Shown one piece after another: positions 4,144 to 63,784 of a stretch of 64,000 bases of DNA. Under the pieces are notes generated by a model that did not search any database, was not told the DNA's origin, and worked only from the letters and a program-made list of their open reading frames with translations. The position numbers were made by a program, and so were the translations under genes. Every line of letters starts with the position of its first letter. The first letter of the stretch is position 1. Origin of the DNA: Ianthella basta (taxonomy: Eukaryota; Porifera; Demospongiae; Verongiida; Ianthellidae); the NCBI GenBank assembly GCA_964019415.1, contig OZ025881.1:3815121-3879120 (forward strand), written 5' to 3'.

Positions 4144-5774
4144 GACAAGAAGCTGGAGAGGGTTGCAGTGCATATTCCAGGAATGGATTACCTCTTTGAG
4201 AAGCGTGACGACAATATGCATACGTACCTTGCTGTACCAGAAGGTTCAGTACTGAAAGGAGACGATGTACACCCTAAATATGCAGATGCCAGCAAATCTC
4301 CAGCTATCAGTCAAAAGGATCCAGATGTTGCCCCTTCAGAGTCCAAATACTCCACTGCTGCAGTTATTGGTGAACAGACAAATGCTCTTCAGGAATCTGA
4401 AGCTATGAAAGAGAAGGCTGGCATAACACCTGCTGAGTTCAAAGCCCAACATGAGCCAACCAAGTTTCCATCAGTGAAGGAGCTGAGGCATGAAACTTAC
4501 CCACGGCACATTAGTGCAGGAGCACTTGAACAGGGACAGCATAAAACACCAGAACAACCACCTGTAGTCCACAGGAGGCATAGCCATGCTACCTTTGATA
4601 GGCAAGGCTCTGAAGAGCATCAGGCAACCCAACCCATCCCTCCACATCCAGTGTCACACAACTTGGAAGTAGGCAAGTTTATTGTGCACTTACCCGTCCT
4701 GCTGTATTATGTAATTCGTAGTTCAGGGTGTTTCTTCTGGTTGTGGTTTGTCTAAAACAGACACATAATCTACTATTGCTCTTTCAGTCCCCAACGTGGT
4801 TTGTACAGCATGTAGCTGTAGTGGATGGCTCAACCATTTCATTTTTGTTGTTTGTTTCCATTATAGAGCATACTGTGCAACCTGTTCTTCCATGTGACCA
4901 TAAGGAGGAGCTTCAGGCTAAGGACCAAAAGATGAAAGAGCTACAGCAAACAATCACTGGTCTCAGAGCAGATCTAGAGCGACTTCAGAGAGAAAAGGAA
5001 TATACAATGAGTCTCTGGACCATTCCTGAAGCTGAGCTTGAAGTGACCACAACTGTACTAGGGAAGGGAGCATATGGGGAGGTGCGAGTGGGGGTCTACC
5101 ATGGTGACCGAGTGGCAGTGAAGAGGCTACACAATATCATTGCAAGTGACTACTATCACAAGATGATTCAGAGGGAGATGGGGATTGCTGCTCGCCTGAG
5201 ACACCCCAAGCTTGTCCTCTTCATTGGTGCTGTTACCGTGGGCAACTTCACCATAGTAACAGAGCTGATGGAGACCAACCTTCGCTCTGAACTGGAACAT
5301 GGCCGCCTCAAAGAAGCCCACCTTCTCCCCATCAGCCGTGACATAGCCTGTGCCCTCTGCTACCTCCACTCCCTCCCTGAGCCCATCATCCACCGTGACG
5401 TCAGCAGTGCCAATGTGTTACTCAACTCCAGACAGGGAGGCTGGACTGCCAAACTGGGTGACTATGGCTCAGCCAACTTTCAGGCCAAGCTGCAGACGGA
5501 GGGCCCTGGCTGTCCTGTGTATGCTGCCCCAGAAGCAAGCAGGCCAGAGGAGCAGGGACCCAAGATGGACGTGTACAGCTATGGTGTGCTCCTATTGGAG
5601 GTGTGCTCTGGCACTCTCCCCGACCCTCGTGACCTCCCAGCCATCCAGCAAGCAGTGCACACCTGGGGACAGCCGAAGGGTCAGCTGGGAGTGCTGGCCT
5701 GTCAGTGCACTCACCAGAGCAGTGATAAGAGGCCTCACATGAGGGCAGTGGTCACACAGTTTGATGGAATGTGA
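4144..5774 (+). CDS. CAP-Gly/coiled-coil/TKL-like kinase, gene C (5' part off window)
   Basis: Two exons are visible, 4144-4672 and 4867-5774. The first exon, equivalent to 48181-48366 in C', lies left of the window. Exon 4144-4672 starts after a TAG acceptor and encodes a low-complexity linker. It ends GTAG|gcaagt, a GC-AG donor that keeps phase 1 into 4867. The last exon has a short coiled coil and a complete kinase domain: LGKGAYGEV P-loop, VAVKRL lysine, HRDVSSANVLL catalytic loop, DYG in place of DFG, YAAPEA, then DVYSYGVLLLEV. CAP-Gly 3, present in A and B, is deleted here. It is nearly identical to C' and is likely functional if its first exon is intact. The substrate is unknown. Confidence 0.85.
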
Positions 5775-6444: not shown

Positions 6445-8836
6445 ACTAGCTGGTGCACACCCTAAATATGCAGATGCCAGCATACCTCCAGCTATCAGTC
6501 AAAAGGATCCAGCTGTTGCCCCTTCAGAGTTCAAATACTCCACTGCTGCAGTTATTGGTGAACAGACAAATGCTCGTCAGGAATCTGAAGCTATGAAAGA
6601 GAAGGCTGGCATAACACCTGCTGAGTTCAAAGCCCAACATGAGCCAACCAAGTATCCATCAGTGAAGGAGCTGAGGCATGAAACTTACCCACGGCACATG
6701 AGTGCAGGAGCACTTGAACAGGGACAGCACAAACACCAGAACCACCACCTGTAGTCCACAGGAGGCATAGCCATGCTACCTTTGATAGGCAAGGCTCTGA
6801 AGAGCATCAGGCAACCCAGCCCATCCCTCCACATCCAGTGTCACACAACTTGGAAGTAGGCAAGTTCATTGTGCACTTACGTATACTCATCCTGCTGTAT
6901 TATGTAAGTCGTAGTTCAGGGTGTTTCTTCTGATTGTGGTTTGTCTAAAACAGACACGTATTCTATATACTATTGTTCTTTCAGTCCCCAGTGTGGTTTG
7001 TGTAGCATGTAGCTACGTATATTGGATGGCTCATCAGTTTCGTTTTTGTTGTTTGTTTCCATAGAACATACTGCGCAACCTGTTCTCCTTAGTGACTGCC
7101 AGTTTGACCAAGTGACAGAGATCAAGGCAAAGGTACAATACCATGATGTGCAGTGTGCAACAGTCAGGGAACAAGTAGTACACACCCACAAGGATGCTGC
7201 CAAGGAGACTGATGTACAGCTCAGCAAACACAAGAGACAGGTAATGGGAGTTGTCAGTGGCAGCTGTGAAGAGGCTCTTGTCAGTTGTAAGGAGGAAATT
7301 CAGGCTAAGGACCGAAAGATTAAAGAGCTACAGCAAGCAATCATTGGACCACAACTGTACTGGGGAAGGGAGCATATGGGGAGGTGCAAGTGGGGGTCTA
7401 CCATGGTGACCGAGTGGTAGTGAAGAGGCTACACAATGTCATTGCAAGTGACTACTATCACAAGATGATCCAGAGGGAGATGGGGATTGCTGCACGCCTG
7501 CATGAGGCACCCCAAGCTTGTCCTCTTCATTGGTGCTGTTACCGTGGGCAACCTCACCATAGTAACAGAGCTGATGGAGACCAGCCTTCGCTCTGAACTG
7601 GAACATGGCCGCCTCAAGGAAGCCCACCTTCTCCCCATCAGCCGTGACATAGCCTGTGCCCTCTGCTACCTCCACTCCCTCCCTGAGCCCATCATCCACC
7701 GGTGGACGTAGTTGAGCAGAAAGATAAAGTGAAGGTATATATGCAATGCCTGCATGTAGTGTTCACACTCCTGCATACGAATAGGCATCTTGGACCCTGC
7801 AGGCCAGCCATGGCATGGTTATCAATCTACAAGCTATAGAGATGAAACATTTCCTGCAAGTGGCAGGGGTTACATGGATGGACTGGGTGTGTAATGAAGA
7901 CATGAGAAAAGGGCTAGGTCAGGAAGCAGAGCTGGCCATGGTAGTTGGAAAGCTGTTTCAGAATGACCAGTAGAAGGTGCATGAAGTGGAAGGCAAGTGT
8001 GACCAAGAGGCTGACCTCGTATATGTAGTGGTTAAATACATGGCTTGCATGTCTTGTAGTTTAGCTGTGTCAAAATTACTATGTCCTGTAGATCTGGTTC
8101 CTTATCTTACTGTTTCTGTTTGTTGATGCATGTGATTACATACGTACACCCATACAGCATGTGATTCACAAGTATGATTGCATGTGACACTCGTTGTACG
8201 CGTGTCTGAGTTGGAATAATATCTTGTTTTGCTATATGAATGATTGAGCTGCATGCTGTTTGACTAACTGTCATATATATAGATGGGCAGAAACTTTTAT
8301 TTATCGTCATGCATATGCAAACCAGCTCTTAAGTAACCTGGTCACCTTAACGTATGCTTTTGCAGTTTCCACTGAACACAGGCAGCTAGGGTTGTTGCCA
8401 CTGATCAAGATATGGCATTTAGATGGGGTGGTCTAGCCCACCATCCACCACTGACGTCAGCAGTGCCAATGTGTTACTCAACTCCAGACAGGGAGGCTGG
8501 ACTGCTAAACTGGGTGACTACGGCTCAGCCAACTATTAGGCCAAGCTGCAGACAGTGGGCCCTGGCTGTCCTGTGTATGCTGCCCCTGAAGCAAGAAGGC
8601 CAGAGGAGCAAGGACCAAAGATGGACGTGTACAGCTATGGTGTACTCCTATTGGAGATGTGCTCCAGCACTCTCCCAGACCCTCATGACCTCCCAGCCAT
8701 CCAGCAAGCAGTGCACAACTGGGGACAGCCGAAGCGTCAGCTGGGAGTGCTGGCCTGTCAGTGCACTCACCAGAGCAGGGATAAGAGGCTTCACATGAGG
8801 GCAGTGCTGATGCTGCTTTATGCAATTCAAATGTGA
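6445..8836 (+). pseudogene. CAP-Gly-family kinase pseudogene D
   Basis: A tandem relative of gene C. The linker exon 6445-6859 lacks any upstream start exon and has a one-base deletion near 6729. The kinase exon begins at 7065 with an A-type coiled coil (DQVTEIKAKV, KHKRQVMGVVSGS). An 85-nt deletion relative to C joins the coiled coil to the P-loop region out of frame near 7348. A 4-nt insertion follows near 7500, and the domain is cut at the catalytic-loop HRD by an inserted 741-bp segment (7701-8441). The coding sequence resumes at about 8453 and ends with a different C-terminus (LMLLYAIQM). The 85-nt lesion is shared with D', so D died before the segmental duplication. Confidence 0.85.
7701..8441 (-). 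repeat. Inverted copy of the D 3'-flank segment, inserted in the kinase exon
   Basis: This is the reverse complement of about 58476-59206, the segment behind D'. The local equivalent at 9487-9825 has lost about 400 bp of its interior. The insertion splits the kinase exon between the codons for I-H-R and D-V-S. catccacc occurs at both edges (7693-7700 and 8442-8449), which looks like an 8-bp target duplication. I see no convincing terminal inverted repeats and no coding capacity. D' has no such insert, so it arose after the 50-kb duplication. Confidence 0.75.
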
Positions 8837-11718: not shown

Positions 11719-14700
11719 ATGACAAGCTCACAACAAGAGTATTTTCTCCTCCTAAATGATGTACCAATTGCAAACACTAACAATGTCTTGAGAAATTGGC
11801 TCAATACTGTGAATGCTGGACATGTTGTGAAAGGGAAATTGCTGGTGAAGAATGTCCAGCTTTATGATGGCAGCTATGCTGTGTACAGCCTGGCCTCTGA
11901 CAGAAACATGGAGGTCACTTGCAGCAGCAAGGATGTAGCTCCACTCTGCAAAGATGAGTATGAATGGCTTGTTGCAATCAAAAAGCCTATTGATCGTCAT
12001 CAAGTCTATACTCAGAGAGACAAGTTTGATGCTGTTAAAAAGTTGCAAGTAGGCGTTAAAGTGTTGGTCTCACTGCAAGTCCAGGCAGGAGCCACACTCG
12101 AGCTGCCAATTTGCTCCAGCTGCCAGGCAACCATACAATACATTGGTCCTGTCCAGGACAAGCCAGGAAGATGGATTGGAGTGGAACTGGAGGTAAAACA
12201 CAAAGCACTCCTGTCTATGAGTGTATTGCAATTGCATTAATTTTGTATCTAATATAGGCTTTGCAGTACACATGGTGTCATTGCAGATCCATACTATCCC
12301 TTGAGGTCTACAGAGCAAACTGTATACACTAGCTGTTCTGCAGTGTACATTTGTACTGCCTGCCTTTTGCTTAGTCTTGCGCACCAGCCCTTCCCGCTGG
12401 GAGGAGGGAAGGTCTGTGATGTTCACCAGGTACACTTATATTGGTGGTGCATTGGAATGCAATTATAACGTGATGCAATAAGAACAAGTATTTCGAGTTA
12501 AAAAACTCGTGGGGCGCCAGGGCGCCCCTGAACCTCGAACTACTTGCTATTTCCCATGTACGTTCAGTAAATCAGATATTTGGGGGTACAGTATTGTTGT
12601 TGGCCTGAAAGATACATCAAGACACACTAGACCGTTGGGTTTGCAAGAGTTTCAAGTCTCCAGAGCAGCCAGTCATATCCAGTGAAAGCATCCCCACCAA
12701 ACTGTCAATGTTTGCCTACTGCTTTTTGATCTATATGACATTCTGAATGAGCAATTGTTACTTTGTGCCTGGAGGAGGAGTGTGCTGGCTAAAAGGCTAC
12801 CCTATGATGACTCTATGAGCGAATCATGGCTATAATTATGTGTCATGACTCGCTGGTCTCCCATTATTGGCCTACGGGTCACCAGACTTCTGTTGTATTT
12901 AGGGCTGTACCTCGCAGAAAAACAGTTAAGTAAGCTTCCTACCACAATACTATTACTTAAAAATGTTCTAGAAATACTTTGCGTTCTTTGGATACAGGGC
13001 GAAATCTAAAGAAAGATGGTTTTGAGCCTAGCAAACAGAAAGCGTCGAGCGCGCGGCCATTTTACAATGTCCGTCAGTGATAATTGGAACTGTATCTCGC
13101 AGAAGAGACGTTCCTTAGGCTTTTTACTAGTATCACTCTATTAACACATGTTTATGACCACATTTCGTTCGATTCAAACACGGCGAAACGTCATTAGAGA
13201 GGATTTAAAGCTTTGTAAAGATTGACGTGAGCGCCGCCATTTGCAATGACAGAAATATTAACAGTGCAAGTTACAATATACACCACTAATCTAAAGTAAA
13301 TAATATAATATATACAGTGCAAGTTACAATATACACCACTAATCTAAAGTAAATAATATAATATAATATAATATAATATAATATAATTCCCAGGGGATTA
13401 GGCACCCCTCATGAACATGTGATAGGTGTGGCTTTGAAGTATGGGAGATTTTAAGACTTTTAAATGAGGCAGAATTTTTAATTAGGTCTTCGTTCTACAA
13501 GCAGCCCGCAAAATCCTAATATAAATGTGCATAGCTTAACACTTAATGTATGGTGCATTTATATTGATGCATAGTGGTATCTTGTATATTAATGCAACTG
13601 GGCTCGTTGAGACGTGAAACTTGGTGGACACATCCAAGTGGTCCACCTAATATAATATAATATAATATAAATAATTCCCAGGGCGGTTGGCGGCCTTCAT
13701 GAGCATGTGCTAGGTATAGCTTTGAAGTATGAGAGATTTTAAGACTTTTAAATGAGACGGAATTTTTAATTAAGTCTTCATTCTTCTACAAGCAGCCTGC
13801 AAAATGCTAATATAAATGCACATAGGAGAACACTTAATGTATGGCGCATTTATATTGAGGCATAGTGGTATCTTGTATATTAATGCATCTGGGCTCCTTG
13901 AGACCTGAAACTTGGTGGACGCGTCCAAGTGGTCCACCTTCCTATGTTATTAGCGGGATTTCTTAATTAGTCTCAAAATGGCCAACATATGTGAGGTGTA
14001 TGATTTATTTAACTAGCCAGGCCCACTCAGTCATGACACTTGGTGGACCTAGCCAGATGTCCATGTCATTAGCAGGATATCTTAATTAGTCGCAAAATGG
14101 CCGAGAAAAGTGAGGTTCGATGCATATCCCACCTACCCGGCTCTGCTAAGTCTTGATACTAAGTGGACATAGTTAGATGGCCTATTTGCTCATGTCATGA
14201 GCAGGATTGCTTAATTAGTCACAAAATGGAGGCGATGTTTTGAACAATCACATTTTGGCACCAATTTGTAGACATTTGCTGCTATGCTGGAGCAGAGCAG
14301 CACCCACATGTACACTTGCTCACAACTATCCAGCCACAATATTCAGCTACTATACCACCAATACATAAATACAACCACCATCACCACCACAGTGGAAGTT
14401 GCAATGAGTAGTATATTATGTGCTACAGCTGCAAGAAAGCAGACCACCATGCACATAAGGTGCTGCTACCATATACTACTACCACCACCACACAGTGCAA
14501 GTTACAATATTATGGCCACCACATGCATTTCTAGATGAAACGACCGCCACCACCACCACACTGTGCAAGTTTCAATGCATGCATTCAGTATATGCGCCAT
14601 TGCTCTAGAAAAAACACCATCGCCACCACCACCACACAGGCATGCCATTGAATTTCTTCCCATGCACTCTCAATTCAATGGCATGCCCTTAGGCAAGCAT

Positions 14701-17700
14701 ACAATTGCTTGCTGCAGCGTGCATTCCAATGGCAGCGGTGCAGGTTCTGACCGGCTGTAACTTGCATGTGCTGGCCCGGAGCCACTGTAACTTGCACTGG
14801 TGGTCTTTTTCAATGACCAACTAGCGCAGATACTCTACTGGCACATGTGGTGGTGGCTACTGTAACTTGCACTGGTGGTCTTTTTCTATGACCAACTGAC
14901 GCAGATACTCTACTGGCACACTTGCACTGTGTGGTGGTGGTGATGGTGCTGGTGGTGTATATATAGCACAAACACTCTACCTGCACTCAGGGTGGTTACC
15001 CTTGGCAACTTGCACTGGTGGTTTTGTTCCTAGTAGCACTATATATATATATATACGAACATGAAGCCATACGAATACCTAAATCTGAAAACAATATAGG
15101 GGCGCCTTCGGTGCCCCAGAAACTAGGAGCTGTCACGCAAGACTACCTTTTGCTAGCCATCTGCATGAGCACCAGTTATCATGTCACACACTGTGATTAT
15201 TAAATTTGCTATTTTAGTCAATTATTGGAAGTGATGTACTGATATATATGTTACTATATATTGTTCCTTATTAGGAGAAGCATGGAAACTCTCATGAAGC
15301 ATTCAAGGAGTCCTGCTATTTCAAATGCAAAGAAGGATTTGCTTCCCTTCTGCCTGCCAGCCACATCCTGTCAGTATTGCAATCCACCCACAAGAAGCTC
15401 CTGTTTTCACAAGAAAAATCCATAACAGATCGGAGCTTTTATGTAGATGATCAAATTGTCGTTTTTGACAAAGATGGAAGACGAGTACCAGGAATAGTCA
15501 AATGGGCTGCAGAATTTCCTAAGAAGTCTGGGAATAGAGGCTACATCATTGGGATTGAAACAGTAAGAAGTTGCCATGCCCTTAAGTCATTTAGTGCCTA
15601 TATGCAGAAATATTTTTCATAAGTTGCTGTTTATATAATTCTATAGTTGTGGCTACAATAGATCATGCCTAGTCACACCTAGTGTATAAAGTGATCACAT
15701 CATGTACAGGATATGATGTCCTGTGTCATAGCTAGCCTAGAGATGTAGAGTGCTTACAGATTTGTTTACTTTCTGTAGAACAAGCCCATTAAGAAGGAGA
15801 AGGTTAGAGAGCATATTCATAAAATGGGCCACCATTTTCAGGAGCGTGACAAGAAGAAGCACACTTATCTTGCTGTACCAGAGCAGTCAGTGCTAAAAGA
15901 AGGAGATGGTACACCAGATGGTCTGCGTCCTAAGCCTATGGATGCCAGTAAGCCTTCAGAAATGCCTACTTTGACTCCAGCTGTTGCCACTGGCAATGCT
16001 TTGGAGTCTGACTATTCCACTATGCCAGTTATTAACAAGCAGGAGGAAGTTGTTGAGGACACAGTGCTAAGAACATTTGGGATGAAACCTGACAGATTTG
16101 AAGTCCAACATGAGCAGTGCCAGAGACTGGACAGGCAGCAGCATGAACATTACCCAGGAATCACCAGTTCAGGGGTAAATAGTGCCAGTCAGCATCACTT
16201 TGACCATGATCAGTGTGGAGAAGAGATCCAGGAGTATAACAGATTGCCTCATCACAGAAGACGTACCTATTCCTTTGAGAGGCAGACCTCTGAGATGCAG
16301 CAGGCAGCTCAAGTTGTCCCTCCTTGCCCAAGCTCACACAGCTTAGAATTCGAAGTAGGCACAGATGTAGAGCTGGTAGACCCACCAGGATATGGTACCA
16401 TTAGATGGATAGGGAAGTTTCCTGGTGTGGATCAAGACATTGCTGGTGTTGAAATGGTGAGCTGTGCAATTGTACTCTCGGACTTCAGTATCCCCAGTAG
16501 TGGGGTTCATCCACTAGTATACAAGTATGTGTAAGTGTTCAAAAACATGTGGTATTGGTAGCTGCATATCATTCAGCAGTATTATTTGATGCCTTGTATA
16601 GAAGGTACTTACATACAAAGATATTGCACAGCTACAGTCCGTTATCCTTCCATATATAATACAGCTATGCTATATGTACAGCTAGCTGTTAGCAAACAAC
16701 TTCACTTGCTATTAGTATACAGTGTACACACAGTACATGTCAGCAGGTTCCTTGCAATATCACATTGCATGTGTTTCTGCTGCAGCAAACAAGTGTGGAT
16801 AGATACGGCAATAGTTCCTGTAAGGGTGAGCCTTACTTCAACTGTAAGGATGGACATGCAGTTTTCGTTGTTCTCAGCGGGCTGCTGCCAGACCAACGGC
16901 ATAGAAAAGAACAGTCATCCAGCGACAGTAAGCCATGTAATTGTGCACTTCGTCACACTGCATGCATTGTTAAGGCCTTCAGGATTCGTTAAGTGTGGTT
17001 GTGGTTTATGTCACTAATAGCTGAGTGGCACTTACTAGTTTATTCATGGAGTCCCAGTGCAGTTTGTACATCAGTTCTCACGGTATGTATTGGTTTTTGT
17101 GTTATTAGATTCTACTGTGCGAACTTCACACTCTTGTGGAAGCAAGGATCAAGTGACAGAGATCAAGGCAAAGGTCCGTTGCCACAGTGAACAGAATGCA
17201 ACAGTCCAGGGGCAGGCTGTACTTACCCACAGGGATACTGCCAATGAGAGTGATGTACAGCTCAGCAAACACAAGAGACAAATAAGGGGAGTTGTCAGTG
17301 GCAGCTGTGAAGAGGCTCTTGAGACAAACATAATCAGCTGTGAGGAGGAACTTCAGGCTAAGGACCAAAAGATGAAAGAGCTACAGCAAACAATCACTGG
17401 TCTCAGAGCAGATCTAGAGCAGCTTCAGAGAGAAAAAGAGCATCTTCAGAAGGAAAAGGAATATACAACCAGACTCTGGACCATTCCTGAAGCAGAGCTT
17501 GAAGTGACCACAACTGTACTAGGGAAGGGAGCATATGGGAAGGTGCAAGTGGGGGTCTACCATGGTGACCGAGTGGCAGTGAAGAGGCTACACGATGTCA
17601 TTGCAAGTGACTACTATCACAAGATGATCCAGAGGGAGATGGGGATTGCTGCTCACCTGAGGCACCCCAAGCTTGTCCTCTTCATTGGTGTTGTTACCAC

Positions 17701-18235
17701 GGACAACCTCTCCATAGTAACAGAACTGATGGAGACCAGCCTTCGCTCTGAGCTGGAACACAGCCGCCTCAAAGAAGCCCACCTTCTCCCCATCAGCCGT
17801 GACATAGCCTGTGCCCTCTGCTACCTCCACTCCCTCCCTGAGCCCATCATCCATCGTGACGTCAGCAGTGCCAATGTGTTACTCAACTCCAGAAAGGGAG
17901 GCTGGACTGCCAAACTGGGTGACTATGGCTCAGCCAACTTCCTGGCCAAGCTGCAGACGGAGGGCCCTGGCTGTCCTGTGTATGCTGCCCCAGAAGCAAG
18001 CAGGCCAGAGGAGCAAGGACCCAAGATGGACGTGTACAGCTATGGTGTGCTCCTATTGGAGATGTGTTCTGGCACTCTCCCTGACCCCAATGACCTCCCA
18101 GCCATCCAGCAAGCAGTGCACACCTGGGGACAGCCAAAGCGTCAGCTGGGAGTGCTGGCCTGTCAGTGCACTCACCAGAGCAGGGATAAGAGGCTTCATA
18201 TGAGGGCAGTGGTCACACAGCTCGATGGAATGTGA
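11719..18235 (+). CDS. CYLD-like CAP-Gly / coiled-coil / kinase fusion protein, gene A (902 aa)
   Basis: Five exons join in frame: 11719-12192, 15275-15562, 15779-16456, 16786-16927 and 17109-18235, all with GT-AG borders. Residues about 108-190 form a CAP-Gly domain like CYLD CAP-Gly 1 (GRWIGVELE, YFKCKEGFASLLP). About 211-254 form a divergent second one (DDQIVVFDKDGRRVPG, YIIGIET). About 441-515 match CYLD CAP-Gly 3 (YGTIRWIGKFPGV, YFNCKDGHAVFVVLS). A coiled coil follows at about 535-655, then the kinase at about 660-895: P-loop 666-672, Lys 686, HRD 776-778, DYG 799-801, APE 821-823. CYLD has a USP protease where this has a kinase. CAP-Gly domains bind microtubule tails and, in CYLD, NEMO. 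The role here is inferred only. The start ATG sits 12 bases after an acceptor, so a 5' UTR exon is likely. Confidence 0.9.
12193..13260. other. Intron 1 of gene A, first part
   Basis: No gene here. A GC-rich hairpin (ggggcgcc/ggcgcccc) lies at about 12511-12530. About 12903-13080 and 13089-13255 look like a diverged tandem pair of about 185 bp, each starting ctgta(c/t)ctcgcagaa and ending with a 'gccattt(t)acaatg'-like stretch. Confidence 0.5.
13261..15017. repeat. Large repeat with inverted arrays of cagtgcaagttaca, copy 1
   Basis: Related, in reverse orientation, to 20868-22474. The 14-bp motif cagtgcaagttaca occurs in forward orientation at about 13263, 13316 and 14500, and in reverse (tgtaacttgcactg) at about 14785, 14860 and 15005. 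The flip happens near 14680. Other parts are CCACCACCACCACA runs, an ATAAT microsatellite (13350-13387, 13650-13670) and diverged internal direct repeats (13386-13480 against 13677-13770). It sits in intron 1 of gene A. No open frame stands out, so it looks non-autonomous. Family unknown. Confidence 0.75.
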
Positions 18236-20867: not shown

Positions 20868-22474
20868 TACCGCCACCACCACCACACAGTGCAAGTTACA
20901 ATATCGCAGCTACCACCACACAGTGCAAGTTACAATATCGCAGCCACCACCACCTGTGCCAGTAGAGTATCTGCGTCAGTTGGTCATAGAAAAGACCACC
21001 AGTGCAAGTTACAGTAGCCACCACCACATGTGCCAGTAGAGTATCTGCGCTAGTTGGTCATTGAAAAAGACCACCAGTGCAAGTTACAGTGGCTCCGGGC
21101 CAGCACATGCAAGTTACAGCCGGTCAGAACCTGCACCGCTGCCATTGGAATGCACGCTGCAGCAAGCAATTGTAAGCTTGCCTAAGGGCATGCCATTGAA
21201 TTGTGAGTGCATGGGAAGAGATTAGGCAAGTTACAATTGCTTGCTGCAGCATGCATTCCAATGGCAGCGGTGCAGGTTCTGACCGGCTGTAACTTGCATG
21301 TGCTGGCCCGGAGCCACTGTAACTTGCACTGGTGGTCTTTTTCAATGACCAACTAGCGCAGATACTCTACTGGCACATGTGGTGGTGGCTACTGTAACTT
21401 GCACTGGTGGTCTTTTTCTATGACCAACTGACGCAGATACTCTACTGGCACAGGTGGTGGTGGCTGTGATATTGTAACTTGCACTGTGTGGTGGTGGTGG
21501 CGGTCGTTTCATGTAGAAATGCATGTGGTGGCCGTAATATTGTAACTTGCACTGTGTGGTGGTGGTAGTAGTATATGGTAGCAGTACCTGATGTGCATGG
21601 TGGACTGTTTTTTTCAGCTGTAGCACATAATATACTACTCGTTGCAACTTCCACTGTTGTAGTGATGGTGGTTGTATTTATCTATTGCATTGGTGGGTAT
21701 AGTAGCTGGATATTGTGGCTGGATAGTTGTGAGCAAGTGTACATGTGAGTGCTGCTCTGCTCCAGCATAGCAGCAAATGCCTACAAATTGGTGTCAAAAT
21801 GTGATTGTTCAAAACATCGCCTCCATTTTGTGACTAATTAAGCAATCCTGCTAATGACACGAGCAAATGGGCCATCTAACTATGTCCACTTAGTATCAAG
21901 ACTTAGCGGGGCCGGGTAGGTGGGATATGCATTGAACCTCGCTTTTCTCGGCCATTTTGCGACTAATTAAGAAATCCTGCTAATGACATGAACAGTTGGA
22001 TTATCTGGCTAGGTCCACCAAGTGTCAAGACTGAGGGGGGCCTGGCTGGTTAAATAAATCGTACACCTCACATATGTCAGCCATTTTGAGACTAATTAAA
22101 AAATCCCGCTAATAACATAGGAAGGTGGACCACTTGGATGTGTCCACCAAGTTTCAGGTCTCAACGAGCCCAGTTGCATTAATATACAAGATAACACTAT
22201 GCATCAATATAAATGCACCATACATTAAGTGTTCTCCTATGTGCATTTATATTAGTATTTTGCAGGCTGCTTGTAGAAGAATGAAGACTTAATTAAAAAT
22301 TCCGTCTCATTTAAAAATCTTAAAATCTCCCAAACTTCAAAGCCATACCTAGCATATGCTCATGAAGGCCGCCAACCCTCCTGGGAATTATTTATTTATT
22401 TATTTATTTATTTATATTATATTATATTATTTACTTTAGATTAGTGGTGTATATTGTAACTTGCACTGTATATA
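20868..22474. repeat. Large repeat with inverted motif arrays around a giant palindrome, copy 2
   Basis: Reverse-orientation relative of 13261-15017. Forward cagtgcaagttaca motifs lie at about 20886, 20923, 21000 and 21078. Reverse motifs lie at about 21313, 21390, 21474, 21541 and 22455. About 20941-21185 and 21230-21480 are near-perfect reverse complements of each other, with arms of roughly 240 bp and a spacer of about 45 bp. It inserted in the intron that splits the GPS motif of the adhesion-GPCR fragment. A TTTA microsatellite lies at 22388-22415. No coding capacity. Confidence 0.8.
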
Positions 22475-23287: not shown

Positions 23288-26200
23288 TTAATCAGCTGCA
23301 GGGGGAATGCAGCCCTCTGCAATGATCATGGGGATGCAATCAAGGTTGAGTCCTGACAGGGTGACATGATTGCTGGATCTCGAACCGCGAATTGCAGTGA
23401 TGGCCGATCTGAGGAGGCTGAACCGAATCCTGCATCTTATCAAGTTCATCACTTTGGAGTATGCCTCACTTCTCTCCTCTGAAATCATCCCTGCTAATCG
23501 GCTGTAGAAGATAGTGGCTGATGAGCTCATTCCTCCTGTAATAGACATAACAAGGGGTGTGAATGATCCATGTTCAATTTCTCTCACTCTTTGATCATAT
23601 GCCCTCTTCTTCTCCTGCTCCTGTGCTTTATAGACGGCTTAAATGCTGGCACTCTGGTGGCTCGATGCTAGGGGGTTAAAAACCCTCACATCAAAGAAAG
23701 CATCTTGTGAGTCTGACCAGAATCCCCTGCACTTCACATCCAGTCGGCAATTATCATCCATTTTGGCTGATTGGTGATTCATTCTCTCTCCTGTAATTGG
23801 CTGGAGTGTGGGCTCCACTTCAACACTTGAGGTCACCTCCCGGAGTAGGGTGGCCGTTGCATCTCGAATCTCGTTGTGTCTCATGATGACATACCCTCCC
23901 CTAGCACAGCTTAGAGCATGGCTGACATCGTTCTGCTTCCCACAGATGCAGGTACTTGGCATTCCCTGTGGTCGCCACCCATACCTCAGGGCCATGGCAT
24001 CACGGAATGCACCTTTGTGTAGAGCAAAGCCATGTTCTTCAATAGGTATAACTGTCAACCACACTGATGCACCTTTCTCCTGTGCCAGTTCCACTGCCTT
24101 CTTCATGGTTGACGGTAGTTGGTCGCAGATTTCTGCTGCCATTCTTATCTGCTGGGATCTACTCTTTTCTTTCACAGACTTTCTTGCCTTGTCTTGTTCT
24201 GCATCAATCAGGTCCTCGTTTCCATTACCATTTCTTATTGCGTCTTTCAGGGGCTGGCTGATGGCTCTGGATGTAACGTGCAGTTGGTCTGCCATCTCCA
24301 GTAGAATGTCAATCCCAAGCCCTCCCAGTCGGGCTGGCAGGGCAAGAAGCTTCCTTTCTATGTCATTGATGTTACTCTTGCCTATTATGGCTGGGATGAC
24401 CTTGTGTCTGATGGTTTCTTCGATTGGCTGTAGCAGCTCACTGATGTTTTCTGTCGTTCTGGACAGGTAAGACCATCTGTGCTTGAGGCCTTGATTCAGT
24501 GCACAGTATGCAGCTTGTGGTTGACTCACTGCAATGTCTGCCAGCTTCTCCAGTTCTGCTTTCCACTCTTCTACTTTAGTTCTGACATATGCTTCTTTGA
24601 ATTCTTCATTACCAATGGTTGTGCCAAGATGTTTGCGACCTGATGATGTTATCTTGATGTTGGTGGCACCAAAAGCCTGCATAGCCTCTTCATAGGCCTC
24701 TTCTTTGACTAGCAGCCAGGTCTTTGATGGGTTGGCATAGTAGCCATAGTCAGGACCCATCTCAAGAAGTCTGTCCCACCATTTGCGAAGCTTTTCAATC
24801 CCCCCACCTGCTGCTGAATCATCCGCATACCATACTTGCTCCACTTCTGCACATGTAGCAATCTCCAGTTGTCTGATGAGGGGTATTGTGGCAATGGCGT
24901 ACATTGCCATTGCGAGTGGGTCTCCCTGAGTTGTACCTTCTTTTGACATGATGGTTTCCCCCTCAATAAACAAACATGGGTCTGATCTGTACGTGTTGAC
25001 CAGTATGGTGCCAATGGCAGGACACAAATTCATTGCATTACTCAGAGCAGCCTTCCTGTTCAATCTGTTGAATGCATTTGATGCATCTACTAGTAAGATA
25101 GCTTCTGTTGCCTTCTCCTCATAGATTTCATTTAGGGCATGTATGGAAGCTTCACATCCCAGTCTCTGGCCAATGCACAGTTGGAGAGAACCGACCACTT
25201 CTCTGATGTCTGAACGTATCACAGCAAGGATTGCCTTGCTGATAATGCGACGAGGCACTTCCCCGATGCCAACCGGTCTCACCCCCGGACATTTATCCAG
25301 GGCAACAAGCCTGCATGCTACAAGAGGCGTCAGGGGCTTTGGATCAACAAACGAGCTGCTAAGTCTTCTTGCAATCTTGGCAAGTGCTTCACAGAGGTTT
25401 GTTGATGCCTTCTGGAAGGATCCACACAGACGTCTCCACGCGTAGGCATCCATACCTGATGGACCTGCACTGCCATCTGTATGCAGGGATGCATTGAGGA
25501 TTGAAGCTCCGGTGATCTGTTCAAATATAACTGGGTGGAATGAATTCTCTTCAGATGGTGCAATGGCAGAGAACTTCAGTGGTTCACCATTAGGATGTTT
25601 ATCTCTAAGAATATCCCTCACTGTTGTGCTTTCATCCACATCCCTGTCAAGGGGTAAAACCCTGCCGCTTTCTCCAGACAATAGTCTCGTGGCCTCTCTC
25701 AGCCTTCCTTTCATCATCAGCTCAGCAAATCTTCTTGCATCATTGTCATTGTCCCTTCTGCTCACATACTGGGTCAACCTACTTTGAATTGCCCTGCCTT
25801 CTTCAAGTATAGCCTCAAAATTGCCAGCACACCAAAGACCCATTCTTCTTTCCATGCATACAATGTGATCTTTTGACTTTGACGTTCTGAATGGCTTCTG
25901 GAGAACTAGAGCTGGTAGGATCATGGCAGCTTTAAGAGCCACTGCTTCCATAGCAGACTGGTCAGCATATGACTGAAACAATCGTGCCAGTTCAGCCACA
26001 AAGGATTTACCTTGCTTACCTGAAGGCACCTTGAAAAGGTTCTTTCTCCAGTGAACTGTCTCATCGTAGATCTCATTGAGGGTGGTTGATATTTCCTCAG
26101 CACTCCGATTCCCCCAGGTAAAATTTGTAGGTTGAGCAGGCTCAAAAGGAGGCAGTAAGTCGGGTGCGATCGACTGCGACACTTCTTCATTAATGGCTTG

Positions 26201-26460
26201 CAGTGGTACTTGAACTGGCGATTGTTGGAGTGATTGTGGCTTGAACTCTACCGTCTCCTGTTCTGTCTGGTCTTGGTTGTCATTCCTACAGTTACCCAAT
26301 CGCTTCGGTAGACAGCTGTTGCATTTCTTTGATGATTTAACGCAGGTACAGTTCGTGCATCTTCCGGACTTGTTACATCTACAACAAGGCATTGGGAATT
26401 CTTGCGGGTATTGGCAATCACAATCACCTTGAATGAGAGCGTGTCAAGATCAAACTTAGA
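23288..26460 (-). mobile_element. Reverse-transcriptase element 1, nearly whole
   Basis: A 917-aa frame (26392-23639) starts with a Cys-rich tesmin/CXC-like module (CCRCNKSGRCTNCTC, CNSCLPKR). It continues with a reverse transcriptase showing VDASNAFNRL, GTTQGDPLAMAMYA and the YADD active site, then a Cys/His knuckle (CICGK, HALSC) and a possible PD-(D/E)xK-type nuclease (RLDVKCRGF, FFDVRVFNP). The homologous C-terminal tail continues to 23288, so the element looks almost whole, with about one break. No tyrosine recombinase, protease or LTR was seen. The polymerase family is uncertain: non-LTR-like is my best guess. A diverged relative is at 37071-40145. The long intact frame suggests a young insertion. 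It lies just behind TM2 of the receptor fragment. Confidence 0.75.
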
Positions 26461-28698: not shown

Positions 28699-30862
28699 AT
28701 GCCTAAGACAATGGCTGCGAGTGGTCTTCTTCCAAGTTATCAAGAGTCAATAAAAAGTGTCGAAGACAAGAAGAGGTACTTGGAAAAATTGGCGTTCATC
28801 GGCGGCGACGATCCGTACTCAATTCCCACGGAAGAGTGGCAGGACGATGTGGACAGCTGGCCAGCCATTACCTACATTCATGTAGGATTGTATCTTTTGT
28901 TCACTCCGAGTCCGTACACGAAAGAAGATCTTGAAAACTACAAGAGTATGGACAGTTATGAGAGATTCCTCGCTGGCTGGGTTAGAGAAGTGCTCGTGAG
29001 AAGATGCTCTGGAGACATTGTGTTAATGGTGGCAAAGGTGAGCTATACACCAGCTCAGTTGTGAAGATATGTGCAGAATTTTGATCCAGACACTGTCTAC
29101 ATTGCTGTCTACATTGCACATACGTAGGTGAACCATTCACAGCGCCTGAATGAGAAGCCCCTTATCCCATGGGTACTTGCAGAAGCTGGAGGTAAAATAA
29201 TTACAGCACACTGCAACTGCATGGCTGGCTTGGGTGAAACTTGCTCCCATGTAGCATCATTACTGTGGGCAATTGAGGCAGGTGTTCGTACAAGAGAATC
29301 ATTAAGTGTGACCGATAAGAAGGCCTACTGGGTAATGCCACCTGAGGTGAAAAAAGCACACCCTGCTCGCATTTCTGAAATCAAGTTCAGTAAGCAACAC
29401 AGAAGATCTGAATGTGATGCTGTGAGTAGCCAATCTGTACCACCTCCATCTGAAGATGAGCAGAGTAGGTTTATTTCAACCTTGGGCACCTGCAAAACAA
29501 AGCCTGCTATATGTTCATTAGTGGAGCCATTTGCAGAGATGTTCATACCGGTGAGCATGAAGGAAAATTTACCAGCACCTTTGGCTAACCTGTATAACCC
29601 AGACCTCTTGATCGAATCCTACTCCACACTTTTACAAGTTGCCTCAACGTACAAGCTGGAGAATCTCACCTTGTCTCAGGTGACTGCAGTGGAAGAAAAG
29701 ACACGTGGACAGGCACAATCAAAACTCTGGTTTCAATTACGCAGTGGACGCATCACAGCCTCAAAGGTTCGAGCTGTTTGCCACACTGATCCGTCTTCCC
29801 CGTCAATCAGTTTGATAACCTCCATTTGTTATCCTGAGTTGTCAAGATTCAAGAGTGCTGCCACCACCTGGGGATGTAAGCATGAAGCCAGAGCACGCAC
29901 TGCATACTGTGAAAGGCAGCAGAAAAGCCACGATGACTTTTTCGTAACTGAATGTGGCCTTTTCTTGCTCACTGAGCATCCATTCTGTGGGGCATCTCCT
30001 GATGGAGTCACCAACTGCACCTGTTGTGGAGAAGGTGACTTGGAAGTAAAGGTAAGTATGCACTCAGGTTTAAGCTTAAATTTATCGGTTGTGCTTAGGG
30101 TTTATGCAGGTATAAATTAACTTATACACAACAATGTATCATTCTACAGTGCCCATATTGTCATAAGGATGACTTGTTGGAAGACTCTACAGCAGATAAG
30201 AAATTCTGCCTTGAGGTGACAGCTGCAAGTGGGTACCAACTAAAGAGGACACATCAGTACTATTACCAGGTAAATCTAAATCATTTTTGGGTGGTAATGA
30301 TACAGCTGTGGTGCACTGCATGCATGCATGTCTATTCAGTATTTACAGCCATTGCGTGTTCAATCCGTAACCCCTCCTGTAGGTCCAATGGCAGCTGCTG
30401 TGTACTGACAAGGATTTCTGTGATTTTGTATTGTGGACGAATGAAGATCTGCATGTGGAACGCATATGGCCATCAGAAGAGTTCCAGACTGAATGTTTTG
30501 AGAAATGTCAATCGTTCTTTACCCTTGCCATCCTTCCTGAACTATTCGGGAAATTCTATTCTCGCCCTCCACAGCAGAAATCACACAGTAGTGAACAGCA
30601 GCCTACTTTAGATGCTAGCACTACTTCTGCAGAGCCTATGCCATCAATGGAGGGAACACAGTTCATCACAGAGGACAGTGACAGCTTTTGCTACTGTAAT
30701 GGACCTGAATATGGCATCATGGTCGCTTGCGATAATGCGAATTGTCCACATGGCAAGTGGTTCCACCTGGAATGTCTACAAATCAAGGCACCACCCCGCT
30801 CTCGCACATGGTACTGCCCTGACTGTAGGAGGCATGTACCAAAAAAGAAAAGAAAAGTGTAG
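28699..30862 (+). CDS. SWIM zinc finger / YqaJ nuclease / PHD finger protein of the transposon (620 aa)
   Basis: Four exons join in phase 0: 28699-29037, 29128-30051, 30150-30269 and 30383-30862. A SWIM finger (CNCMAGLGETCSH) is at about residues 140-160. A YqaJ-like exonuclease fold follows: SGRITASK, WGCKHEARA, SPDG, then LEVKCPYC and YYYQVQWQLLCT, so the D...ExK catalytic residues are in place. A C4HC3 PHD finger lies near the C-terminus (SFCYCNGPEYG, CDNANC, WFHLECL, WYCPDC), resembling ING-family PHDs. The protein ends in PKKKRKV, a classical nuclear import signal. It probably helps the transposase in DNA processing. Host use is possible but unsupported. Confidence 0.85.
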
Positions 30863-30972: not shown

Positions 30973-32415
30973 TTAATCAAAGGGAACAACTGAATTAGAC
31001 ATGTTCACTAATGCACAACACACTGTCGTGATTTTGTCCAGTAGTGGCGGTTCACCATCTGTGGGAGCAATGAGGAAGTGAATAGGTTGGGTTTCTTGGA
31101 GCAACGAGTACTTCTGGCGGAGATTGCCGATAACTCATTCCACATGGATCCTCACATTTGCAATCCGTCTGGTCTGTTCCACCTCAATCCCACGGAGTTG
31201 GGCCTTTCCTTTTGTGAATGCAGGCATTTTGATGGTAGCCATGCACAATCCAACAGAATCAGCAATGTCAAACCCTCTGTCAGCCAGAATTGTGTCGCCT
31301 GGTAATAGAAATGACAGAAGTCTACTACTCTCGGTTACATGTTTGTCACTTGCTCTGCCACCCCATCCACTTGAAATGAAACACACAGTACCCTGTGGTG
31401 TAACACCAATCAGATATTTTGCCGTATTGTGATGCTTATAGGATGAGTAGGTCTGAGCCCTTGCCAACAAATTCGATGGTCGCTCAATAAACACTTCAAA
31501 GCAGTCAATGATGACTGTGCACTTTGGACAATGCTTTCGAAATGCCATGGGCATTGTTTTTCGAATAGCACTCCTTTCTGGCCATTTGATAAGAAATCTC
31601 AACCTTACATACATGACATTAACACAGTGACAAAATATGCGGGAGACCGTAGACTGGCTTATCTGAAACCTGTATCCCAGGTCAGCCTGTGATAGTCCCA
31701 GCCTGAGCTTCATGAGGGTCAGAATCAGTTGCTGAAATGGAACCAGGGTACTCTTCTGCATCAGATGAGGACACACAAGCTGAGCAAGTGCATCTAATAC
31801 TGTGCCTGGCAATCCAGTGTAAAATGACAGCCTGGATTCATCTGAAACTGCAGAGTCCATGTCAAATACAAGGTATTGCAACCTTTCCCTTATACTCTGC
31901 ATGTCCTGTCCTTGATGACATAAGCGCTCAATGTCACTGGCATTCAAATCCGTTTGAACACATGTTTCCACAGCAGTAAGAGCAGCAGACTGTGAAGCAA
32001 TGCCTGGTTGCTCACCTTCTTCCCACTTCATGCACTCTGCCTCTTGCTTCTCAAGGACTTTCTTCTTCCGGTTTCTCTCTAGCGATCGTGAATGCCTATC
32101 CTCTGCAGAAGTACCATCCTTTACACTTGAATGGCCTAATCTGAGAGAGGGAGCCCAATCTGGATCATCCTGCTCATACAAGGAAGATGGCTTGCCTTTC
32201 ACGAAGTGGTCCGAGCATATACGAACATTTGAATACTGGCTCTCCTTCAGATCAGCCCGATGAAGACGCGACAGCCACAGTGTTCGGCGTTTCTCGCTGA
32301 GCATGTGGGTTTCGGGGCCTTGATGTTCCACAATTGAGGGCAGGCGGTAAAAGCTCTTCGATCTTTCTCTGCTAGAACGATTGGAGCAGCCAAAAACAGC
32401 ACAGAAGTTAACCAT
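30973..32415 (-). CDS. THAP-domain DDE transposase with one premature stop
   Basis: The 426-aa frame (32415-31135) starts with a THAP zinc finger (CAVFGC, then CSDHF), the DNA-binding module. It continues through a helix-turn-helix ([15 protein letters not shown]) and a DDE_Tnp_4 catalytic core: IIDCFEVF (first Asp), LADRGFDI (second Asp), RIHVE (Glu). A TGA codon directly follows that Glu (31132-31134), where the family usually has Arg, so a CGA-to-TGA change is likely. The same frame then continues with [17 protein letters not shown] to about 30973. The predicted product ends about 50 residues short. It lies in the transposon convergent with the YqaJ gene. Confidence 0.82.
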
Positions 32416-32705
32416 TGTGGGCGAAAACGTTATCCAGACAGCGACAAAACCTAGAACAAAAGACCTTCGATGTATACCGTTCCACGCGGTTGTCCTCCAA
32501 TATGGCGGATGGGCGTCTCGACTCCGCCCACTGCATAAGCTCTATACCTAATAGTAACTAGATATTTTTCTGAATATTTACTACTTTAGCAAATTCAGTT
32601 GTGTAGCTGAAGCTAAACCATGGTTTCTGTATTCGCTTTGCTTGCTTATTGAAATATTTCTCCGTATGACAGGTGTCATTAGCTATATTATACAAAATGG
32701 TTATA

Positions 32706-32928: not shown

Positions 32929-35900
32929 ATGGCAAGCTCAAGACAGGAGTACTTCATCCTCAGAAATGATGTACCAATTGCGAAAACAAAAAATTTCTTG
33001 AGAAACTGGCTCATCACTCTGAATGATGACCATGTACTGAAAGGGGAGTTGCTGGTGAAAGAAACCCAACCAAGACCACATGATGACAGCCATGCTATGT
33101 ACAGCGTAGCCTTGGACAAATCCAAGAAGTTGTCCTGTAGCAACAGCGATGTAGCTCCACTCGATGAAGATGACTATGAGTGGCTTGTTGCAATCGAAAA
33201 GCCTATGGACCGTTACCAATTCTACAGTCAACGAGGCAAGCTTGAGGCTATTAAAAAGTTGCAAGTAGGCGATAAAGTGTGGGTAACTGTACCAGTCAGT
33301 TATGAATTCCAGTTGCCAGGTTCCTGCTGCTGCCAAGGAACTGTCCAGTACATTGGTCCTCTCTATAAAGGCCGTTGGATCGGAGTGGAATTGAAGGTGA
33401 GACACGGGGTATTTATGGTAGCACTACCAGTGATGGGCTCATTCATCATGCACATTCATAAGTTGTCTAATACCCTGTAAATGTATTATTCAGCTCTTTA
33501 CCCAATACTATGAAAGTAATTAATATTCAATACTTGTACACAGTCATTTCATTGTTTCTAGTCCCATTAGACATTTGCACTCTACACTCGATCATGTGAG
33601 GAAATTATTGGAACAGTAGATTTGCATGTGATTAGTTTGTCGATTGACACTAGGTACCACACACGTGAGAAAATGCTGTTCCAATTACTTTACTCATGTA
33701 ATTGAATGCAGAGCACATTGGGCAATTGGGACAAGAAACCCTGAAACGCCAGTGTCGGTATTGGATGCCGTTACAGACCTTTTAGAGTCAGTTGTCCACG
33801 CTGATACAGTAGAATTGTTTGCACGATATTATGCAGATTCATACACATACTTACAGTATAATTATATAATCTAGTGTTGAAGTACATAATGAAATAGAGG
33901 TTTTATGTAAATACAGTATGTTTATGAAGATCTTGCTTTTGACTCCGGTATCCGGTACTCGGTGCCCAGTGGGGACAATTGACCTGGAAACATCTGTAGT
34001 GCCCCATGCTCTTTGATCAGAGCAGCTCAGAAAGGGAGGAATGCCCATAGTATTACATGAAAACTGTTTGGTATGATTGGTACAAGTGACATATTGTTAT
34101 GTTTTTTAACAGGAGAAACGAGGTAGCTGTGATGGATCATTCAGGGAAATCCACTATTTCATGTGTGAAGATGGCTATGGAGCATTTCTGCCTGCCAATC
34201 ACATCTTGTCTGCCTCAAAAACAACCTCAGCACCTCCACTTGTAGCCACAACCTCAGCTACTCCGGCTCCAGTCACAGTCCAGAAAAGGCTTCTGCTTTC
34301 AGCTGAGGTGTCTGCAACTGACCGAGAGTTTCGCTTGAATGATTGTGTTGTTGTTTTTGACAAAGATGGAAAGCGAATATCAGGAGTTGTCAAGTGGGCA
34401 TCTCCTAGGAAAGACTTAGACTTGAAGTGTCACATCATTGGGATCGAAACGGTAAGAATTTGGCTGGTAACTACATTGCATCAAATCTAGGTCACTGTGT
34501 TATGCATTACCTCATCATCTAGAGTCCTTGGCTGTCACTACCATCTAAAGTGATCAGAATGTGTCAACGGTGTTGCTCCTTTTCTGTAACCTTACATAAA
34601 ATGTATCTTGGAAATGCTGGCTGGCTGCCTTTATTGCCTAGTTTTAGTGATGTACATACAGTAGTTATTACAGCCCATGGTAGCACAGGGGCAATTCGTG
34701 AGTGTAGTACACCTGGTGCAGTTGTTCAGACTGCAAGGTATTGGCCCCATACATGAACATGCTCAGTCCATAATTGCAACTGAAGAATGCCCTTTAGGGC
34801 TGACTTGTCTTGCAGTCTCCATAAGTCTTCAAGTATTACGCTCAAGAATTGTTTCCCTGCTGCCATAACCGGACGTGGTATTCTACTGTATATATCATAA
34901 TTGCAGCCCACTTCCAATGACTGCACTCGAGATACTCATCAAGTACCAGTAAGCGTTCTAGAAACCTGAAGAAGGGATTTTGAACCTATTGCCATAGGAA
35001 CTTTCCATCTTCTATTTTCAAGGCAGTGTTAACCATAACTTGTGATAGCATTGAAACAAGATGAGGTGTGGATGGTATTGTATCTCCCAAAAATACATGC
35101 ACCATATCTTCTGGCATGGAGCAAAGAGGGATAGTGCTGTGTGCTGCAATGCATAGAAATATTGGGCTGTCTACGTATATTCCATTTCACCATCCCTCCA
35201 TATTTCTGGCAACATCAGAGGCCATGGGTTAACTCATACAACTCTTGCAATATTGACAAGCCTTAGGGTGCATTTGGGGGGGAGGGTGCATTTGCCCCAT
35301 CCTTGGATAATATGTGTACAGATTATTTCCTTTCTCTAGGACATGCGCATTAACAGTGAGAAGGTTGATTTTAAAAGTCTTGCCCTCTCCCATACTTTCC
35401 AGCCATACCAAGCACGTGGGCATGAGCACCTCCAAACCCCCCAGGCATTATATTAGATTAGATTAGATTCCATTATAGATTATTTATTTACTAACTTCAG
35501 TTTAGTGCATTACATAGTTACTTGCACTGTGTATAGATATGTGTACTGATTATTTACTTTCTCTAGGACTTGCCCATTAGCAAGGAAAAGGTGTCAGAGC
35601 ATATTGCTGGAATGGGCCACTTTTTTGCCAGGCCTGACTTCAAGAAGCACACCTACCTTGCTATACCAGAGCAGTCAGTGCTGAAGGAAGGTATACTAGT
35701 TGATCTATGTACTGAGGCTTTGGATGCAAGCAGTACTTCAGAAGTCCCTAATTCAGTATTAGCTGTTGCCACTGGTATTACTTTAGAGTCCAAACATTCC
35801 ACCACTCAAGTTATTAAAGAGCAAGCAAAAGCCCTTCATGAATCTGAAGCAACGAAAGAGAAGGCTAAAAAGGACAAGCTGGCAACATCAAATTGGATAA

Positions 35901-55542: not shown

Positions 55543-56208
55543 CTTAATCATTACTAGGCGATTGGGCATAGCTGCGGCTGACTGATTGCTTGTAATAGTT
55601 TAATGCACTACACAGAATAATAGTTTTGTACTGATTTCCTTCTCATATCATTGGGTGTGTATCACATGCAGTTTGTAATAATTTTTCTGCATGCACTTGG
55701 AATTTCATGTCAGCTTATGTAGCTGTACTGTACATTAGAACACATTAGTATTCAAACATATGCCATTAGTTTGATGATTCTTACTTTATTTACTTACTCA
55801 TATTGTACAATGTGTCCATTATAATAGTTTTATTTGGTTTCTTTCTGTACATGTATGCATTTATTAGTTGCTTGATAACTAGTATGTATTGTACATGTAT
55901 ATACTACAACTAAACACACGTTGTGCATGTGCCTGTATACATTGATTATGTGTAATACTATACCTTATTATACTTTGTATATGTATAATGCACATGTATT
56001 TCATCCACATAAATATGTAATTTATCCACAGCAAACAGACATGCATTCACCATATTATATTATAATATAAAGCAAACACTGTAATTGATGAACCACTCCA
56101 ACAGCCCTTAATTAATGTAAACCCTGGAGGCCTTGATCCCCCCCCCACTGCTGGCCCCTGCACAAACACGTTGGTGGCTCTGGTTGCCAATATATTGCTA
56201 CCTTTCAG

Positions 56209-63301: not shown

Positions 63302-63784
63302 ATGGCTGCCATGACAAGCTCACAACAGGAGTACTTTCTCCTCCTAAATGATGTACCAATTGCAAACACTAACAATGTCTTGAGAAATTGGCTCAATAGT
63401 CTGAATGCTGGACATGTTGTGAAAGGGAAATTGCTGGTGAAGAATATCCAGCTGCGTGATGGCAGCTATGCTGTGTACAGCTTAGCCTCTGACAGAAACA
63501 TGAAGGTAACCTGCAGCAGCAAGGATGTAGCTCCACTCTGCGAAGATGAGTATGAATGGCTTGTTGCAATCGAAAAGCCTATTGATCGTCATCAAGTCTA
63601 CATTCAGAGAGACAAGTTTGATGCTGTTAAAAAGTTGCAAGTAGGCATTAAAGTGTTGGTCTCACTGCAAGTCCAGGCAGGAGCCACACTCGAGCTGCCA
63701 ATTTGCTCCAGTCGCCAGGCAACCGTACAATACATTGGTCCTGTCCAGGACAAGCCAGGAAGATGGATTGAAGTGGAACTGGAG
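63302..63784 (+). CDS. CYLD-like CAP-Gly/kinase gene A', first coding exon (runs off window)
   Basis: 161 codons from an ATG directly after a TAG acceptor (63299) to a gtaaag donor. Nearly identical to exon 1 of gene A, with three extra N-terminal residues because ATG replaces ATA at the upstream position. The CAP-Gly 1 start is present (KLQVGIKVLVSLQVQAG, PGRWIEVELE). GRWI-E-VELE replaces the G of A and B (GRWIGVELE), a change at a well-conserved CAP-Gly position. Remaining exons lie beyond 64000. Confidence 0.85.

Follow-up and report, generated by a model that had tools for sequence, protein, structure and literature searches.

A predicted gene family of the sponge Ianthella basta in which a CYLD-type CAP-Gly half is joined to a TKL-like kinase

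In a 64-kb window of Ianthella basta DNA (the whole stretch analysed here), we found two full-length gene models, A and B, whose predicted proteins have a CYLD-type final CAP-Gly domain and, after it, a coil and a TKL-like kinase. The explanation that we favour, and consider reasonably probable, is that a copy of CYLD exchanged its protease for the coil and a TKL kinase, which would yield a kinase addressed to CYLD-type partners, and that a tandem array and conversion of the kinase followed.

Gene A (11719–18235) consists of five exons with GT-AG introns, which together encode 902 amino acids in one open frame closed by a stop codon. The first-pass annotation had proposed proteins of 902 and 944 aa; they correspond to gene A and its paralog B, with five exons each and the same intron phases (0/0/0/1). 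Both of the gene A junctions to which it had drawn attention, 16927/17109 and 16456/16786, are of GT-AG type and keep the frame open. The positions of all features are given in Table 1.

Table 1. Predicted genes, exons and further copies of the family in the window, in order of position.
Feature	Position	Strand	Content
Short copy 0	4144–5774	+	Linker exon and kinase exon; without CAP-Gly 3; earlier exons would precede the window start
Broken copy	6452–8818	+	Kinase region with stops and frame changes; kinase split by ~750 bp
Gene A, exon 1	11719–12192	+	N-terminal region and front half of CAP-Gly 1; open frame, GT donor
Gene A, exon 2	15275–15562	+	Back half of CAP-Gly 1 and front half of the middle CAP-Gly-like unit; GT-AG, in frame; counterpart exon in B
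Gene A, exon 3	15779–16456	+	Remainder of the middle unit, linker and front half of the CYLD-type CAP-Gly 3; GT-AG, CYLD match
Gene A, exon 4	16786–16927	+	Back half of CAP-Gly 3; stops soon past PDxR
Gene A, exon 5	17109–18235	+	Coil and predicted TKL-like kinase; stop codon 18233–18235
Gene A, introns cutting the CAP-Gly units	12192/15275, 15562/15779, 16456/16786	+	Near-identical motif position
Gene A, homogenised tract	17478–18197	+	Kinase 90–98% identical to B (exon 5, 42827–44043) per 60-bp block
Gene B, full-length paralog	32929–44043	+	944 aa; Pfam CAP_GLY in two stretches, Pkinase
Gene B, exons	32929–33396, 34113–34451, 35567–36235, 41791–41932, 42827–44043	+	
Short copy C	48181–55542	+	Middle-unit exon 48181–48366, linker exon from 53912, kinase exon to 55542
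Broken copy	56216–57812	+	Kinase region with stops and frame changes
Copy D	63311–63784	+	Exon 1 only, 95.4% identical in nucleotides to exon 1 of gene A; rest past the window end

The CAP-Gly half and its likeness to CYLD

The Pfam matches to CAP_GLY and Pkinase were judged by the cut-off of each family, and a ubiquitin protease was sought among matches up to E 1. This check had been suggested in the first-pass annotation, and both families pass the cut-off in both predictions: CAP_GLY with 92.8 bits in A and 113 bits in B, in two stretches of each protein, and Pkinase with 122.5 and 113.7 bits, respectively. In the protein of gene A, CAP_GLY is placed at residues 134–188 and Pkinase at 663–895. 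No ubiquitin protease family was found up to E 1 in either protein, and the kinase sits in its place.

The evidence for a relation to CYLD is strongest in the last CAP-Gly domain. A profile made from CAP-Gly 3 of A and B scored 65.6–66.1 bits against three CYLD CAP-Gly 3 sequences and 30.4 bits against the next CAP-Gly, that of dynactin (E = 2.4e-17 vs. 3.4e-06 for the next CAP-Gly). Compared with CYLD, the segment exceeds 500 shuffles by 28.8 standard deviations in A and by 38.6 in B, with 33 and 36 of the 82 aligned residues identical, and the clear match closes at PDxR, a few residues upstream of the exon 4/5 junction. These comparisons establish, at the level of sequence, that the final CAP-Gly of A and B is of CYLD's third type specifically, as had been proposed. 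The motif GVxxWIGxxPG, also proposed for this region, is correct in its WIG and PG parts; the actual letters in both genes are GTIRWIGKFPG, with T in place of V.

The available passages of PMC8511506 describe binding of ubiquitin by CAP-Gly 2 and 3 of CYLD and binding of NEMO by a separate, highly conserved surface of CAP-Gly 3; Pro or Arg in place of L475 abolishes the binding of ubiquitin, with NEMO binding retained in the Pro form. In our alignment, the contact L475 corresponds to Asp in A and Ala in B, V487 to Thr in both, and F545 to His in A and Gln in B, while E507 is replaced by Gln in A and retained in B. The contact Arg, printed as Arg488 in the source and numbered 489 by the CYLD letters used here, is retained in A and B. 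Judged from these residues, the ubiquitin-binding face of CAP-Gly 3 is mostly lost in both proteins. Reading of ubiquitin through CAP-Gly 3 was set aside as a mechanism because its contact residues are replaced.

Outside CAP-Gly 3, the alignments point to a weaker link with CYLD. Aligned from the part before the first CAP-Gly through CAP-Gly 1, the N-terminal regions of A and B matched CYLD in hhalign with E = 3.2e-06 and a probability of 88%, on a presumed CYLD sequence upstream of CAP-Gly 1; the same alignment also matched CYLD CAP-Gly 3 (5.5e-05). The first-pass assignment of a CYLD-type N-terminal part is thus supported by a match along CYLD through CAP-Gly 1, at a lower level than that of CAP-Gly 3. 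Against CYLD, the stretch upstream of CAP-Gly 1 had a z-score of 2.5 for A, a value reached by 13 of 500 shuffles, and of 5.1 for B, reached by none of the 500. In A, CAP-Gly 1 gave z = 6.8 against CYLD CAP-Gly 2 and 3.4 against CYLD CAP-Gly 1; in B, it gave 9.9 against CYLD CAP-Gly 1, narrowly over 8.8 against CYLD CAP-Gly 3. The 34 CAP-Gly sequences that the N-terminal profile matched in the PDB do not include CYLD CAP-Gly 1.

For the middle unit, the picture is different from that for units 1 and 3. Three CAP-Gly domains had been annotated, of which the first and third are confirmed by Pfam, whereas CAP_GLY is not recognised in the middle unit of A or B; CAP-Gly 2 of human CYLD, taken as a control, is above the cut-off at 30.6 bits. 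Against the PDB, the middle unit gave nothing significant (four sequences up to E 10, none of them a CAP-Gly), and against CYLD CAP-Gly 2 it reached z = 4.7 in A, compared with 1.2 in B and 1.1 in copy C. The data support a composition of two CAP-Gly domains and one degenerate or cryptic unit in each predicted protein. It should be noted that a phase-0 intron splits all three units in A and B, at or one residue past G[VI]E[LMT]; the matching positions lend the middle unit weak support, as does its z-score in A, and hint at a possible origin of the units by duplication, intron included. The AlphaFold model of exon 1, based on three alignment rows, was too poor for use (mean pLDDT 35.1).

GKNDG is the motif of microtubule-binding CAP-Gly proteins. 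A motif search found it in neither A nor B, with GSCDG and GSGDG present in B, and its absence disfavours simple microtubule binding. We therefore regard as unlikely a cytoskeletal kinase whose CAP-Gly domains would bind microtubules or tubulin tails, the likeness to CYLD being mere ancestry: the CAP-Gly 1 profile is indeed closest in the PDB to tubulin chaperone B and dynactin, and passages of PMC8511506 ascribe to CYLD CAP-Gly 1 and 2 a contribution to microtubule binding, but a CYLD-type CAP-Gly 3 counts against this reading.

Coil, kinase and the array of copies

The best PDB matches of the kinase are CTR1 (2.2e-28) and RAF1 (4e-27), and the best 60 distinct PDB sequences, out of 78 with E no higher than 1e-18, all belong to CTR1, RAF1 or B-RAF if fusions are counted, which places the predicted domain among TKL-like kinases. 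With NCBIfam, eight prokaryotic families were matched by the kinase, every one far below cut-off, and none of the Pfam families listed, 10 in A and 12 in B, is a RAF-type regulatory domain. In the AlphaFold model of exon 5 (four alignment rows), part of the long coil helix alone is confident, and the model as a whole is too poor (mean pLDDT 38.1). Overall, the order proposed in the first-pass annotation, a coil and then a TKL-like kinase replacing the ubiquitin protease, agrees with the Pkinase match, with CTR1 and RAF as the nearest kinases and with the lack of a protease family.

GxGxxG, VAVK, HRDxxxxN (HRDVSSAN) and APE are all found in A and B, with DYG replacing DFG, so that the kinase, as far as its motifs indicate, is probably active. 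The DYG triplet and the broken and short copies adjoining the full-length genes would fit a decoy or pseudokinase, with the family as a competitor of CYLD for partners and the kinase in a scaffolding role. We hold this to be improbable, since A and B have the catalytic motifs, copies 0 and C show them in readable form, and the kinase is the best conserved part between A and B.

The copies were located by tblastn with A and B and by self-comparison of the window. Besides the full-length A and B, the array has two short and two broken copies as well as one that the window end cuts, in line with the earlier proposal of a family and not a single gene. For copy C, the CAP-Gly 1 exon was not found upstream, CAP-Gly 3 is absent and the final splice lacks a clear donor. 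Between the linker and kinase exons of copies 0 and C, a splice can be placed at many points that leave the frame open, but inspection by eye showed no convincing donor at any of them.

Several repeats accompany the array. The segment 1–10439 recurs at 50100–59790 as direct blocks of 92–98% identity (about 10 kb, 50 kb apart; 97.8% over 5.9 kb in the largest block), which may be either a segmental duplication or an effect of assembly. A 728-bp element at 7710–8437 and 58479–59206 (99.3% identical, opposite orientation) looks recently moved, as its copy at 7710–8437 interrupts the kinase in one of the broken gene copies. An inverted pair at 13309–14576 and 21471–22474 (about 1 kb, 88–93% identical), in intron 1 of gene A and downstream of this gene, is probably a mobile element. 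Three open frames were also observed: 23642–26443 (−), of 934 aa with a reverse transcriptase domain, and, between A and B, 29128–30117 (+), similar to YqaJ or viral alkaline exonuclease, and 31138–32541 (−), with THAP and DDE_Tnp_4 transposase domains. Scans of the window for tRNA and Rfam families gave no match.

The join, selection on both halves and the homogenised kinase tract

The gene structure rests on the comparison of A and B. Exon 4 is 142 bp long in both, and the lengths of the other exons differ by multiples of three only. The amino acid identity over aligned residues is 60%, 52%, 58% and 49% for exons 1–4, 51% for the coil and 92% for the kinase; tblastn gives 57% for exon 1. An accident of prediction is hardly likely to have produced the join, because two copies this diverged both keep it.

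We estimated dN/dS and dS between A and B with 200 bootstraps per region. The dN/dS ratio was 0.45 (0.35–0.55) for exons 1–4, which encode the CAP-Gly half, 0.31 (0.15–0.50) for the coil and 0.42 (0.18–0.96) for the kinase, indicating that both the CAP-Gly half and the kinase half are under purifying selection and making separate transcripts unlikely. That prediction falsely joined a CYLD-like gene fragment to a neighbouring gene for a coiled-coil kinase is very unlikely: both joins are predicted from genomic DNA and the exon 5 frame of gene A already runs open from 17039, ahead of the junction, but B has an equal join with a phase-1 junction and about 50% amino acid identity around it, the part of the coil that precedes A's first internal exon 5 methionine is conserved in frame, and selection acts on both sides.

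In sliding 60-bp blocks, the identity of A and B climbs sharply at the edges of the kinase. Outside the homogenised tract (Table 1), it is 26–83% in the upstream blocks of exon 5 and 45–79% in the blocks from 18198 on. The dS of the kinase, 0.093 (0.043–0.158), compares with 0.671 (0.564–0.843) for exons 1–4; synonymous sites are affected too, so that selection at the protein level alone is insufficient for the uniformity of the kinase. The simplest cause that we infer for the homogenisation is gene conversion limited to the kinase domain, which we consider likely.

Known proteins and the proposed origin of the family

The first-pass annotation knew of no described protein with this architecture. 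This holds for a CYLD-type half on a TKL kinase, for which we found no description among the papers listed by our literature searches, as judged by titles and abstract openings; it does not hold for CAP-Gly/kinase fusions in general, of which other designs are already known (PMC10263333, PMC1266030, in the passages available). The receptor tyrosine kinases RTKC of Monosiga brevicollis, as presented in a passage of PMC10263333, have CAP-Gly and kinase in one protein; they are receptors with an extracellular part and CAP-Gly C-terminal to the kinase, whereas in A and B the CAP-Gly domains precede a TKL-like kinase. A trypanosomatid kinase that carries CAP-Gly belongs to the CAMK group and is unlinked to CYLD in the source passage (PMC1266030), unlike the TKL-like kinases of A and B. 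The sponge Amphimedon queenslandica has AqCYLD, described in part of PMC5796713 as a putative CYLD homolog with CAP-Gly domains; set beside A and B by this description only, it retains the deubiquitinating domain that they do not have. What appears new, within the literature searched, is the combination of a CYLD-type half and a TKL kinase.

Like CYLD, A and B begin with an N-terminal part and a CAP-Gly 1, both aligning along CYLD, and have the CYLD-specific CAP-Gly 3 after them. Unlike CYLD, they have no ubiquitin protease match but a coil and a kinase, their middle CAP-Gly is degenerate or absent, and the ubiquitin contacts of CAP-Gly 3 are mostly replaced. The kinase domain resembles those of RAF and CTR1 within the TKL group, and the CYLD-like targeting half sets A and B apart from both. 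Searches for relatives gave 34 and 20 pattern matches in prokaryote genome contigs and 50, 2 and 37 in viral contigs, none confirmed as a relative; each of the four alignment queries supplied two peptide patterns, which gives low sensitivity, and prokaryote and viral collections say little about animals.

In the order of events that we infer, an ancestral copy of CYLD would have lost its ubiquitin-protease end and gained the coil and a TKL-type kinase through the intron right after CAP-Gly 3, the point of joining being the present exon 4/5 boundary. CAP-Gly 3 would then carry the kinase to CYLD-type binding partners, the kinase would probably pair through the coil, and it would phosphorylate proteins where CYLD would trim ubiquitin. 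The reading of ubiquitin by CAP-Gly 3 was probably given up; the replaced contacts make docking on a CYLD-type partner without ubiquitin reading the likeliest model. The gene would then have multiplied in tandem, with a targeting half that diverges and a kinase held uniform by gene conversion.

In NF-kB signalling, CYLD and kinases such as IKK act in opposition on shared hubs. Taken together, the predicted domains suggest a targeted signalling kinase. A further and more doubtful step, which we offer tentatively, would make A and B part of an innate-immune or stress kinase family at CYLD docking sites, with phosphorylation answering ubiquitin trimming, the targeting halves diversifying and conversion maintaining a common kinase. 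If a natural protein does combine the targeting half of CYLD with a kinase, this half would be a portable address. A and B are a direct test case for the role of CAP-Gly 3 once the ubiquitin contacts are gone. The array, in which the targeting halves diverge and the kinase stays uniform, is also a clear candidate for gene conversion in a single domain of a gene with several.
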